Origin: Natronomonas sp. CBA1123
GTDB taxonomy: Archaea > Halobacteriota > Halobacteria > Halobacteriales > Haloarculaceae
Length of the DNA stretch: 57,068 nucleotides
Direction of reading: 5' to 3'
Assembly (NCBI RefSeq): GCF_009741925.1
Contig: NZ_WPCC01000018.1
Location: forward strand, 1 to 57,068
Under the pieces are notes generated by a model. The model made no database searches, was not told the DNA's origin, and saw only the letters and a list, made by a program, of their open reading frames with translations. Made by a program: the position numbers and the translations under genes. Every line of letters starts with the position of its first letter. Positions within the stretch are counted from its first letter, which is position 1. Positions 37,156 through 42,823 of this stretch are shown here, piece by piece.

Positions 37156-37383
37156 TCACCGCCGACCGTATCGGTGACCGACCGCGAGGACGAGAAGGTG
37201 CAAGACGACGAGCGACGTGAACAGGCCGGCCCCTCGGAGTCCACCGATGCCGTCGACGAGCACCGGGACGTAGGCGACCGGGAGGAGAACGGCCGCCCAG
37301 AACGCCGCAGCCTCGATTGGTTTCCGAACCCGAGTGAAACCGCCCAGTGAATCTCCTTCACGATTCCCTCCCCATCTGACCAT
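37156..37383 (-). CDS. Small membrane protein downstream of rhomboid
   Basis: The protein has 75 aa from ATG 37383 (ATG 37407 gives eight more). A basic N-terminus is followed by two hydrophobic helices (AAAFWAAVLLPVAYVPVLV, LFTSLVVLHLLVLAVGH). It follows the reconstructed rhomboid stop (37416) closely, so it is probably co-transcribed. In the given sequence the frameshifted rhomboid frame runs straight into it. Function unknown. Confidence 0.6.
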   Translation of the reverse strand: MVRWGGNREGDSLGGFTRVRKPIEAAAFWAAVLLPVAYVPVLVDGIGGLRGAGLFTSLVVLHLLVLAVGHRYGRR

Positions 37384-37415
37384 ACGATGCGATTCCGCCA
37401 CGCCCATATCAGGGT

Positions 37416-38004
37416 TTACCCAATTTCGGGCCGACTGTCTCCCACGTGGAGCACTCGGAGCCGACCACAGAGGGCACCGAGAAGGAAGCCGACGAAGTGT
37501 GCGACCACGGCGACGCCGGGGGGCAGCCGTCGCCAGCGTGACGCCGACCGCCAAGAGCAGAAACACCGCGAGTCGGCCGCGGCGACCGACCGGCAGCCAC
37601 GACAACACTCGCTCGGAAGCCCGATTGCCGACGAGGAGATAGCCGAACAGCGCAAAAATCGCACCGCTGGCGCCGAGTACTGCCGACGGACCGAACACCG
37701 CCGTGACGACGACCTGCGTGACGCCCGCCAACGCTCCCGTCGCGAGAAAGAACGCGTGAAAGCGTACCGGTGTCGTCACGCGTGCGACCAGCGGTCCCAC
37801 GACCACGAGTGCAAGAGCGTTCGCGGCGAGATGCGTAAGGTCGCCGTGGGCGTACACGCTCACGACGAGCGTCCACGGGTGGCGTTCGAGCGGCAACGCG
37901 AGGGTGAACGCCCACGACCCCACCCCGACCGCGCCGCCGACCGTTTGGGCGACGAAGACGACCCCGAACAGAGACAGCGTCGTCAGCGTCGGGCGGTCGG
38001 CCAT
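37416..38004 (-). pseudogene. Rhomboid intramembrane serine protease, frame broken in a C6 run
   Basis: The six-helix rhomboid core is recognisable. His58 and Asn62 lie in THLAANALALV (oxyanion side) and nucleophile Ser113 lies in GASGAIFALFG. The catalytic His lies in VVAHFVGFLLG, but in another frame. Removing one C from the C6 run (plus-strand G 37518-37523) gives LATAAPGVAVVAHFVGFLLGALCG and a stop at 37416. Rhomboid loss in Haloferax is reported to alter S-layer N-glycans, which fits its position 25 bp after the DUF368 gene. The frameshift may be a sequencing error. Confidence 0.85.
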
Positions 38005-38029: not shown

Positions 38030-38974
38030 TCAGTATTCGAGGTCGTCGGTATGGCGGTCGAGGAAGAGTACCGCGACGATGCCGACGGTGGCCGGAACGA
38101 TTATCGAAACGACCGATACGGCCGTCACCTCCCCCACGTTCACGAGAACTTCCGTCGCCGGCAGTCGGAGGGCACCGACCATGAGGCTGACCAGGAACGT
38201 CAGCGTCGCCTCGCGATACCGACGTAGTGCCGCTCGTACGGCGTAGGCGACCGAAAACACGCCGACGAGAGCGCCGGACATGAACGCCACGAACGGTGCG
38301 AGCGCGTCGAGAAGCGGCGCGGTGTTGCCCCCGATGGCTTCCAGAATGCCCGAGAGAATCGCCCGCGGGATGCCGCTGACGAACTCGTATTGACCGAGCA
38401 CCAACAGCAGGAATGCCCCGGAGACGCCCGGCAACACCATCGCGGAGATGGCGATGGCGCCGGCGACGAACAGCACGGGAAGCGTCGACGGCGTCGACCC
38501 GCTCAGCGAAGGGTCGGTGACGAGAAACGCGAGGACGAAGCCGATTGCGGCGACCGCGATGCGGCGTGGCGTCCCCACGTCGACGTACCGGTAGAGGACG
38601 ACCGCCGACGCCGCGATGAGGCCGAAAAAGAAGGCGTAGGTTGGCGCCCGGTACAGTTGAAGCGCGGCGTTCATCGCCGTCGCGATGGTCGCCGCTGCAG
38701 ACAGCAGACCGGCCCCGAGGACGAGCAGGAACGGAACGTCCATCCGGACGAGTTCCGCCGCGACTGCGGCGCGGCCCTCCGCCGTGTGGACGCGGGCCAG
38801 AAGCCGAAGCGACGACGGGTCGAAGGAGGTCAGCGCCGTGATGAGTCGTTCGTAGATACCGACGATGACGGCGATAGTTCCCCCGGAAACGCCCGGGACA
38901 GTGTCCGCGGCGCCCATGCAGGCGCCCTTGAGATACACCGCCAGCCATCCACGGAGGCCGGCGGAATCCGACAT
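38030..38974 (-). CDS. DUF368 family membrane protein, candidate polyprenyl-phosphate flippase
   Basis: The protein has 314 aa and about 8-9 membrane segments. The DUF368 hallmark ADTVPGVSGGTIAVIVGIYE sits near residue 23. A second, related copy MVLPGVSGAFLLLVLGQYE lies near residue 180, indicating an internal duplication as in inverted-repeat transporters. Bacterial DUF368 proteins (PopT) are implicated in returning undecaprenyl phosphate to the cytoplasmic face. Here the ATG abuts the aglB stop with no spacer, so dolichyl-phosphate recycling after N-glycosylation is a strong inference. Confidence 0.9.
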   Translation of the reverse strand: MSDSAGLRGWLAVYLKGACMGAADTVPGVSGGTIAVIVGIYERLITALTSFDPSSLRLLARVHTAEGRAAVAAELVRMDVPFLLVLGAGLLSAAATIATAMNAALQLYRAPTYAFFFGLIAASAVVLYRYVDVGTPRRIAVAAIGFVLAFLVTDPSLSGSTPSTLPVLFVAGAIAISAMVLPGVSGAFLLLVLGQYEFVSGIPRAILSGILEAIGGNTAPLLDALAPFVAFMSGALVGVFSVAYAVRAALRRYREATLTFLVSLMVGALRLPATEVLVNVGEVTAVSVVSIIVPATVGIVAVLFLDRHTDDLEY

Positions 38975-41767
38975 CTATGCTGGTGGCGCGTAGGTCGCCT
39001 GGCGACCCTGGGTGCTGTTTTCGCTTTCGTCAACGGGGTTTACTTCGGCCCGCTGTTCCAGTTCGACACTGACTGCGCTATCGTCCTCACCGAGGACCTG
39101 TCCCTCGGTCACGTTGGCATCGCCGGTCCACGCGACGAGGTCGCCCTCTCCGAACGCGACGAACTGGTAGGAACCGTTTGCCCGGACCGAGACGTTCGTG
39201 TAACCCGACTCAGTGCCGTACTCGTCGTACCCGGTCGTCGAGTACGGCACCGTCATTTCGAAGTTACCGTTCTCATCGGTTTGTGCGAACTGCCTGTAGA
39301 CGAACGTTTCACCCGTGGAGCCAACCTCCATTTCGACCTGTGTTTCGACCTCGGCGTTGGCGGGGCCGGTTCCCTCGATGGTGGCGCCGTCGACGCGTTC
39401 GAAGGTCTTGACCCAGGATTCGGGTTGGGTTTGCTGACCTGTTGCGCGCTCGAACGGCGAGCGAGCGCCCGCTTCGCTGCCATGAACCAGTCGGAAGTGC
39501 TCCAGCGCGTTGACGCGTTCGCTCGGTTGACCCATCACGCCGCCGTGAATCGCGTTGGGGTTCTGCTGGGCCGCCTCACGAGCCTCCTCGCTGCTGTTGT
39601 ACGAGCGAATGACCGACCCCTCTTCGGGCGGCGTCGCGACGCCGTTTTCGGGGTCGTACTGTCCGAACCGGGAGACGAACCGCGCCGGTTCGACAGCAGA
39701 GCCGTGGAATTGGTACAGCCGAACGCGCATGCTCTCGTAGGCGCGTTGGGTGTGGACGCCGTACAGCGGTTGCCGGTTCTGGTTGATGACGGTCACGCCG
39801 ACGTCTCCCGAGGAAACGTCGTGACGCGACTCGAAGGCCGTGGGAGCGTTGTACTTCGTCGTGCCCGCGTAGCCGAGCTGGTAGTCGACCATGACGTAGC
39901 GGACCCCCTCGGCCTCACCGCTGTCCTCCTCCAGGATGTTCAGCGACTCGGTCTCGTTGTCCGCCAGCAGGAAGTCGGCGGATTCGGTGGCGTGCTGCTG
40001 GAAGGGGTTCGCCACCGGGACCCGGTCGCCGGCGACGGTTATCCAGTGGCCGTAGTCCCACCACGCCAACACGCCGTACTCTCCGCTCTGGTACTCGAAG
40101 TCGTCAGTCCTGTCGTAGGTGCCGTACGGTTCCAGTCGGGGTTCGTCACCCGTCGAGTACGACCCCATCTGGGGCGTCTCCTCGGAGAGCCAATCGAGGC
40201 TGCCCTCCCAGTTCTGGACCCCGCCGGGACCAACGTTCTCCGTCGCGGCGACCGGTGCCTGTATGACGAGAAGGGGTCCGGCGACGACGGCGAGCAGTGC
40301 GACAACGACGAGTACCTGATACGGTTGGACGTTGGTAACGTCCCGCCGAACCGCTTCGAGGTCGACGAAGCCGAACACCCAGTGGACGACGTATGCGTTG
40401 AGGACGGCGACCGAGATGACGAAGTAGTAGTCGAACCGTCGCTGGGTCAGCGTCGCCAGCAGCATGAAGACGGTGAACACGAGGATGAGAGAGTCCTCAC
40501 CCTTCGGCCGGTCCGAGACTACGAACCGGTATGCGAGGAGACCGAACCCGAAGAGGGCGGTGAAGATGGCGAAGCCGTAGGAACTGTAGAAGAACTGTCC
40601 GGGATTGGTTACGGCCTGTGCCTCACCGACCGTCGCAGCCGTGTCGGAGGTCGTGAGGCCGGCGACCCGGATGAACTGCGAGACTATGAAATCGAAAACA
40701 TCCGGGAGTGCGACCGCGATGATGCCGAGTCCGACGACGCCGATACCGACGATGGTGACCGGATACAGCCGCGCAGCGAGGTCACGTCGGTCCCACTGTC
40801 GGGCAAGACCTGCCATGAACAGGACGCCGACGCCGACGGTGAGCGCGATGAGGGGTTGGACCAGCGAGTAATCCGTAGCGGAGAGTTCTGGAGTCTGGAG
40901 GAACAGCAACATGAGAACCGCGACGACGGCCATCGAAACGGCCGCGGGAATGGCAACGTGGTCGGGGCTGTGGCCCTTCAGGTACTCCATCGTGAGGTGA
41001 ACGAGGAAGACGAAGCCGAGGATACCGACGAGGAAGATGCCGGGTGCCCACACGAGGATGTAAGCCGTCATCGCGAGGCCCGCGAGGACGGCCCACCCGA
41101 GCGGGCGTTTGAGTTCTTCGAACTCGCGGGCGGTGATGAATTCGTAGATGGGTTGGTCACGTTGGGCCGCCGTGAGCATCCCGATAATCGCCAACAGCGA
41201 GATGGACATGAACAGGGTCTCGGCGACGTGGTGGTCCGTGAATCCGGCGACGCTCCGCGAGAGGAAGGCTCCGGGCGTCAGTGCGAGGAGGGCGACGGCG
41301 ACGATGCCGCCGAAGCGGCCACCGAACCGCTTTCCGAGGAAGTACAGCGGAATCGCACACAGGACGCCAAAGACGGCCGGCGCGAGGATGAACACGGTGT
41401 CGATGGTTCCTTGTGAGGGGTCACCAAGGCCGACGACGAGAATTGCCGTCGCGATGAGCTGGTCGTAGAGGGTCCCGAACTGTCCCGCGGTGGTTCCGGT
41501 GTCGAACCCTGTCCACACGTCGTAGGGCATGGTGAACGGGTAGTTTTCGAGGACGTAGTTCGTCGACCGGTAGTGATACCAGGCGTCGTTGCCGGCGAAC
41601 AGCGCGCCGTCGTCGGTGAGGAAGCGCTCCCAATTGCGCACCCGGACCCACAACATGAACGCCATGAGGGCCACGATGACGGGGATGTGGTACAGTCGGT
41701 AGATGATGTCGAGTTGCGACTCGTACTCGTCGAGTCGCTCCTCTAGTTGGTCGAACCGCTGACTCAT
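38975..41767 (-). CDS. aglB: Oligosaccharyltransferase AglB
   Basis: The protein has 930 aa. It transfers lipid-linked glycan to Asn of S-layer glycoprotein, archaellins and other exported proteins. About 13 transmembrane helices occupy residues 20-490, with the metal-binding first loop GNDAWYHYRSTNYVLE and a second DHHVAET. The catalytic WWDYG motif is at residues 569-573 in a large outer domain. The C-terminus is beta-rich (SYQFVAFGEGDLVAWTG-type). A minus-strand GGCTTATGCG upstream of ATG 41767 may be its box A. It is divergent from aglJ. Confidence 0.95.
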   Translation of the reverse strand: MSQRFDQLEERLDEYESQLDIIYRLYHIPVIVALMAFMLWVRVRNWERFLTDDGALFAGNDAWYHYRSTNYVLENYPFTMPYDVWTGFDTGTTAGQFGTLYDQLIATAILVVGLGDPSQGTIDTVFILAPAVFGVLCAIPLYFLGKRFGGRFGGIVAVALLALTPGAFLSRSVAGFTDHHVAETLFMSISLLAIIGMLTAAQRDQPIYEFITAREFEELKRPLGWAVLAGLAMTAYILVWAPGIFLVGILGFVFLVHLTMEYLKGHSPDHVAIPAAVSMAVVAVLMLLFLQTPELSATDYSLVQPLIALTVGVGVLFMAGLARQWDRRDLAARLYPVTIVGIGVVGLGIIAVALPDVFDFIVSQFIRVAGLTTSDTAATVGEAQAVTNPGQFFYSSYGFAIFTALFGFGLLAYRFVVSDRPKGEDSLILVFTVFMLLATLTQRRFDYYFVISVAVLNAYVVHWVFGFVDLEAVRRDVTNVQPYQVLVVVALLAVVAGPLLVIQAPVAATENVGPGGVQNWEGSLDWLSEETPQMGSYSTGDEPRLEPYGTYDRTDDFEYQSGEYGVLAWWDYGHWITVAGDRVPVANPFQQHATESADFLLADNETESLNILEEDSGEAEGVRYVMVDYQLGYAGTTKYNAPTAFESRHDVSSGDVGVTVINQNRQPLYGVHTQRAYESMRVRLYQFHGSAVEPARFVSRFGQYDPENGVATPPEEGSVIRSYNSSEEAREAAQQNPNAIHGGVMGQPSERVNALEHFRLVHGSEAGARSPFERATGQQTQPESWVKTFERVDGATIEGTGPANAEVETQVEMEVGSTGETFVYRQFAQTDENGNFEMTVPYSTTGYDEYGTESGYTNVSVRANGSYQFVAFGEGDLVAWTGDANVTEGQVLGEDDSAVSVELEQRAEVNPVDESENSTQGRQATYAPPA

Positions 41768-41887: not shown

Positions 41888-42823
41888 ATGCCCGACCTCG
41901 CGGACGTGTGTGTCCTCCTGCCGACGCTGAACGAGGCCGAGACCATCGGCGACGTTATCGATGGGTTCCGCGCCGAGGGGTTCGAACACGTCCTCGTCGT
42001 CGACGGCGACTCCACTGACGGAACGCGCGACATCGCCCGCGAGCACGGGGCGCGTGTCCTCACTCAGTCCGGGTCGGGGAAGGGACAGGCCGTCCGCGAG
42101 GGCGTCGAACACGTCGAGAAGCCGTACGTGTTGATGGCCGACGGCGACGGGACGTATCGACCGGAAGACGCGGAAGCGATGCTCGAACCGCTGTTCGATG
42201 GGCGGGCAGAACACGTCATCGGAGACCGATTCGCCGACATGGAAGACGGCGCGATGAGTCGCCTCAACACCGTCGGCAACCGACTCATCAATCGGCTGTT
42301 CGCCGTCGTCCACGGACGAAACCTCCGTGACATCCTCTCTGGGTATCGAGCGTTCACCCGCGCCTCCTTCGAGCGATTCAAACTCGGTGCCGATGGGTTC
42401 GGCATCGAGACGGAACTCGCCGTCGAATGCATCAGACAGGGCGTCTCGACCGAGGTCGTTCCGATTCGATACGAGGCCCGCCCCGGCGGTTCCGAGACGA
42501 ACCTCCATCCGCTGAAAGACGGCGGCCGAATCGTCCTCACGCTGTACACGCTTACGAAGACGAACAATCCCATCTTCTACTTCGGCAGCGTCGCCGTCGC
42601 CGGAACCACACTCGGGACCGTTCTAGCCGGCTACGTCGGCTACGAGTACTTCGTCCGTGGCATCTCACACGAGATTATCGCCCTGCTGTCGGCGTTCTTC
42701 ATTCTCCTGTCGATGCAGTTGCTGATGTTCGGTGTGCTGTCGGATATCATCGTCTCGGTGAACCGAGAGCAGACGCGACGACTCGAGGAGATATCCGACC
42801 GGCTCCGGGAACTGGAAGATTAG
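41888..42823 (+). CDS. aglJ: Dolichyl-phosphate hexosyltransferase AglJ
   Basis: The protein has 311 aa. The GT2 dolichyl-phosphate-mannose-synthase type domain begins VCVLLPTLNEAETIGDVI. VVDGDSTDGT and LMADGDGTYRPED bind nucleotide and metal, and DILSGYRAFTR is the family acceptor motif. Two C-terminal membrane helices (about residues 230-290) anchor it. In Haloferax AglJ adds the first sugar of the N-glycan to dolichyl phosphate. It starts at ATG 41888 and converges with the next gene with a 4-bp overlap. Confidence 0.92.
   Translation: MPDLADVCVLLPTLNEAETIGDVIDGFRAEGFEHVLVVDGDSTDGTRDIAREHGARVLTQSGSGKGQAVREGVEHVEKPYVLMADGDGTYRPEDAEAMLEPLFDGRAEHVIGDRFADMEDGAMSRLNTVGNRLINRLFAVVHGRNLRDILSGYRAFTRASFERFKLGADGFGIETELAVECIRQGVSTEVVPIRYEARPGGSETNLHPLKDGGRIVLTLYTLTKTNNPIFYFGSVAVAGTTLGTVLAGYVGYEYFVRGISHEIIALLSAFFILLSMQLLMFGVLSDIIVSVNREQTRRLEEISDRLRELED

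Follow-up and report, generated by a model that had tools for sequence, protein, structure and literature searches.

A DUF368 membrane protein encoded directly downstream of AglB as a candidate dolichyl-phosphate translocase of haloarchaeal N-glycosylation

The locus lies in a 57,068-nucleotide stretch of Natronomonas sp. CBA1123 DNA (contig NZ_WPCC01000018.1), hereafter the window, to which positions refer unless a locus handle is given. It comprises aglB, a gene encoding a DUF368 membrane protein, and aglJ (Table 1). AglB matches the archaeal STT3/AglB profile TIGR04154 at 857 bits and AglJ matches the equivalog TIGR04182 at 451.2 bits, which are above the respective cut-offs of 450 and 325. 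The TAG stop codon of aglB had been described in the first-pass annotation as followed by the DUF368 ATG with no spacer, and the coordinates are exact: aglB ends at 38975 and the DUF368 gene begins at 38974, leaving 0 nt in between. The annotation had also placed aglJ opposite aglB. This holds at the present locus, where 120 nt separate the aglJ ATG at 41888 (+) from the start of aglB, but the arrangement is only local, as detailed below. The DUF368 gene is single in the genome of Natronomonas sp. CBA1123, none other being found. Further downstream lies a rhomboid-family gene, and the order aglB-DUF368-rhomboid is repeated in Natronomonas and close relatives. Compared to that of N. gomsonensis (L065), this rhomboid gene has one additional base in a run of C near position 37523, so that the reading frame changes past about residue 162; the extra base is either a true mutation or an assembly error.

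Table 1. Genes and motifs of the aglB-DUF368 locus (window positions)
Feature	Position	Strand	Profiles and remarks
aglB, archaeal oligosaccharyltransferase, 930 aa	38975..41767	-	TIGR04154, PF02516, PF18079, PF22627; WWDYGHW motif in translation
DUF368/PF04018 membrane protein, 314 aa, candidate dolichyl-phosphate translocase	38030..38974	-	PF04018
PGVSG copy 1 (residues 27-31)	38882..38896	-	helix break, flanked by helices 7-25 and 31-38
PGVSG copy 2 (residues 182-186)	38417..38431	-	helix break in second repeat, flanked by helices 165-180 and 186-192
aglJ, dolichyl-phosphate hexosyltransferase starting the glycan	41888..42823	+	TIGR04182; divergent from aglB
rhomboid-family gene	37156..38004	-	PF01694

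The DUF368 protein matches PF04018, currently named VCA0040-like, undecaprenyl phosphate translocase-like, at 200.7 bits against a gathering threshold of 26, covering profile positions 1-226 of 246, and its closest named relative is from Natronomonas gomsonensis (97% identity). Both PGVSG copies seen on first reading were found, each inside an internal repeat. Alignment of the two halves to each other using hhalign gave a probability of 97.9 and an E-value of 4e-13 over 132 columns, so the internal duplication is real; the protein thus has the two PG(V/I)SG motifs within an internal duplication by which the PF04018 family is recognized. In an alignment with 20 relatives, a set that reaches beyond the halophiles to other archaea and to bacteria sharing 35-45% identity, the invariant residues include P27, G28, S30 and G31 of the first motif, in addition to G32, R43, D79 and R270, and the second motif is at least 90% conserved. 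The AlphaFold2 model is confident (pLDDT 84.9, pTM 0.78) and all-helical, with a helix break at each of the two motifs. The repeats are likely inverted in the membrane. Comparison of the model with the PDB and a viral library gave no fold match at E ≤ 0.001. Moreover, no PDB relative was found by sequence or profile, which we counted against a recycling role, as there is no solved family structure for comparison. The protein has no match to PF09335 (DedA/UptA), PF04018 being the only family reported.

In bacteria, DUF368 is one of the two accepted families for bringing undecaprenyl phosphate back to the leaflet facing the cytoplasm (PMC12826051; PMC9876793), matching the role in carrier return that had been given for it at first pass. 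Against the NCBIfam models, the protein of Natronomonas sp. CBA1123 scores 172.5 bits with NF052564 (VCA0040-type) and 72.7 bits with NF052563 (PopT), the VCA0040-type being the better match. The equivalog cut-off of 400 bits is reached for neither, which counts against the recycling role, so the protein is not to be named PopT or VCA0040; other archaeal DUF368 proteins likewise fall under these cut-offs.

What the family does, and that it reaches into archaea, has already been published. Sit et al. 2022 reported that HVO_RS12060 of Haloferax volcanii at least partly complements Vibrio cholerae lacking vca0040, found DUF368 to be enriched in Halobacteria, and raised a possible relevance to dolichol phosphate (PMC9876793). 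The first-pass statement that archaeal carrier recycling is unassigned is thus only partly right, given this complementation and suggestion. That paper contains no occurrence of aglB (PMC9876793), and the aglB of H. volcanii is HVO_RS12050 (PMC7749143). It follows that the complementing gene lies two locus tags from aglB. A gene order of this kind is seen at locus L032, which has aglB, UDP-glucose dehydrogenase, DUF368. The intervening gene in H. volcanii is presumably aglM, encoding a UDP-sugar dehydrogenase. Our literature search, with Roney and Rudner 2022 outside its reach, found no paper stating the linkage of aglB and DUF368; the abstract of that study reportedly mentions syntenic analyses, and the study may already note the linkage.

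The linkage was surveyed by searching DUF368, AglB and AglJ each in the same 145 Halobacteria genomes (58 genera). DUF368 was found in 144 of the 145. It lies within 3 kb of aglB, on the same strand and always with aglB first, in 99/145 genomes representing 41 genera and 9 of 10 families, and within 1 kb in 95 of the 140 genomes where both are listed. Because common descent links the genomes, we took aglB-aglJ in the same set as a control, aglJ being single-copy and belonging to the same pathway. The control pair lies within 1 kb in 1/143 genomes and within 3 kb in 3/143. A conserved linkage in other haloarchaea, for which the first-pass annotation had asked for such a survey, therefore held up strongly (99/145 against 3/143). 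At distances of up to 30 kb, aglB is accompanied by DUF368 in 100 genomes and by aglJ in 72. Comparison of the 1-kb and 30-kb counts indicates that the glycosylation cluster is common yet reshuffled, with the aglB-DUF368 adjacency being kept; aglJ adjoins aglB only locally, in Natronomonas and organisms close to it. Of 41 loci inspected, 25 have a putative in-frame DUF368 start codon between -4 and +6 nt relative to the stop codon of aglB. This proximity fits a putative co-translation of the two genes. A possible aglB/DUF368 fusion, raised by extended open frames in a handful of genomes, was rejected as the coordinate-checked pairs lie in different frames.

At the loci of the 39 linked genera, GT2 glycosyltransferases come next in frequency among the neighbour families identified, occurring in 19 of these genera. 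A GT2 protein with a (M)(R/K)(V/I)SVV(L/I)CTY start is encoded upstream of aglB in L014, L021 and L044, divergently in the latter two. The linked form of DUF368 spans the haloarchaeal radiation in a 76-protein tree, and the flanking genes vary across this part of the tree.

The linkage has exceptions. DUF368 lies away from aglB in about 30% of the Halobacteria genomes, and one genome (G021) has aglB and aglJ, two DedA genes and no detected DUF368; both findings count against the recycling role. Fourteen unlinked DUF368 proteins, drawn from three haloarchaeal families, cluster together with support (SH-aLRT 97) inside the sequences of family f4, a position that suggests replacement by transfer, and some genomes hold both the linked and the unlinked kind. 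This nested group consists of L045-L051, L054, L056-L059, L063 and L064, several of which adjoin an M20 peptidase gene. Unlinked copies have mixed neighbours, among them genes for M20 peptidase, UDP-glucose dehydrogenase and GT2, none of which stands out as the one alternative partner. In one haloarchaeal genome of 4.3 Mb (G118) from an AglB-rich genus, STT3 is matched only weakly (E 1.3e-22) and AglJ only in part, with DUF368 retained at one place; this organism may have lost standard N-glycosylation.

In the rest of the phylum, beyond Halobacteria, DUF368 occurs patchily and was not seen adjoining STT3 genes, which again counts against the recycling role. Four genomes of one family have DUF368 some 13-15 kb from aglB. 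These pairs were rejected as support for linkage, since in the one annotated genome of the four DUF368 sits with a uracil phosphoribosyltransferase and a uracil permease-like gene. In addition, two DUF368 proteins from Actinomycetota MAGs (L077 10001-10912 and L079 10001-10912), 44-45% identical to that of Natronomonas sp. CBA1123, fall inside the haloarchaeal tree, pointing to possible transfer or wrongly binned contigs.

Haloarchaeal AglB is established as a user of dolichyl-monophosphate-linked glycans. The lipid by-product left outside would therefore be dolichyl phosphate, the counterpart of the substrate ascribed to the DUF368 family, which fits a monophosphate translocase and makes a pyrophosphatase unneeded. 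Taking the locus, the linkage and the family function together, we think it probable that the DUF368 protein acts alongside AglB as a translocase of polyprenyl phosphate and returns dolichyl phosphate inward. In the proposed cycle, AglJ and later glycosyltransferases would assemble the glycan on dolichyl phosphate at the cytoplasmic face, and the charged dolichyl lipid would be flipped outward. AglB would then transfer the glycan to protein, leaving dolichyl phosphate in the outer leaflet, from which the DUF368 protein would move the phosphate-headed lipid to the inner leaflet. Closing this cycle with AglJ, as originally suggested, is reasonable biochemistry, but the pairing of the aglJ gene with aglB is not conserved (3/143). 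The assignment of the protein to the haloarchaeal N-glycosylation pathway is well supported, whereas we infer that an archaeon would use the protein to transport dolichyl phosphate, that the movement would be inward and that N-glycosylation would use and depend on it.

As a rival reading, the protein could quite conceivably be a general recycler that serves all pathways of the outer leaflet, those of dolichyl-phosphate-mannose and exopolysaccharide among them, by returning their dolichyl or other polyprenyl phosphate; the linkage to aglB would then reflect no more than AglB consuming the most. The near-universal presence of DUF368 in Halobacteria, unlinked genomes included, speaks for such a broad role, as does the partial activity of the H. 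volcanii protein with the bacterial lipid (PMC9876793), but the pairing is specific to and persistent with aglB rather than other glycan genes. More tentatively, the protein might be a dedicated, co-translated recycler that receives dolichyl phosphate straight from AglB and completes the archaeal N-glycosylation cycle, in which case AglB-DUF368 would be a functional unit kept across Halobacteria.

We regard it as rather unlikely that DedA proteins are the main recyclers and DUF368 a conditional partner at high pH or salt. Three DedA proteins are encoded in the Natronomonas sp. CBA1123 genome and could share the job, which counts against the recycling role of DUF368, and DedA was found in all five genomes checked in which DUF368 is absent, unlinked or weakly sampled. 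The V. cholerae DUF368 phenotype is itself conditional, being seen at high pH or salt (PMC9876793). On the other hand, the retention of DUF368 in 144/145 genomes speaks against this reading.

An outward flippase, moving glycan-charged dolichyl phosphate (the lipid-linked oligosaccharide) out rather than the bare carrier in, appears very improbable. The DUF368 gene adjoins that of the product-using enzyme AglB, and the outward step is likewise only partly assigned in haloarchaea, but the proteins proposed to flip the lipid outward in H. volcanii are AglR and Agl15. Moreover, the H. volcanii DUF368 homologue partly replaces a translocase of bare undecaprenyl phosphate (PMC9876793). Least probable of all is an inherited order without functional tie, in which the pair was simply adjacent in the haloarchaeal ancestor: the linked form does look ancestral in the tree, so that the genomes are not independent, but aglJ and the flanking genes were reshuffled over the same span while aglB and DUF368 stayed within 1 kb, and overlapping DUF368 start and aglB stop codons recur.

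Archaeal N-glycosylation needs its lipid carrier to be brought back to the inner leaflet. If DUF368 proteins recycle dolichyl phosphate, the newly found bacterial carrier-recycling family would extend to this carrier, which eukaryotes also use. The conserved aglB-DUF368 pair next to the best-studied archaeal glycosylation cluster, that of H. volcanii, offers a single deletable gene with an assay at hand.

Compared to known systems, the haloarchaeal protein is closest to the DUF368/PF04018/COG2035 undecaprenyl-phosphate translocases VCA0040 of V. cholerae and PopT of Staphylococcus aureus, which belong to the same Pfam family and share both PGxSG motifs. It differs from them in being encoded beside an oligosaccharyltransferase, in its presumed lipid, which is dolichyl rather than undecaprenyl phosphate, and in a host without peptidoglycan. 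HVO_RS12060 is also a haloarchaeal DUF368 protein encoded near aglB, yet its gene is two locus tags off, whereas that of Natronomonas sp. CBA1123 abuts aglB. UptA/DedA proteins (PF09335) have the same proposed job of bringing polyprenyl phosphate to the inner leaflet, but belong to a different sequence family.
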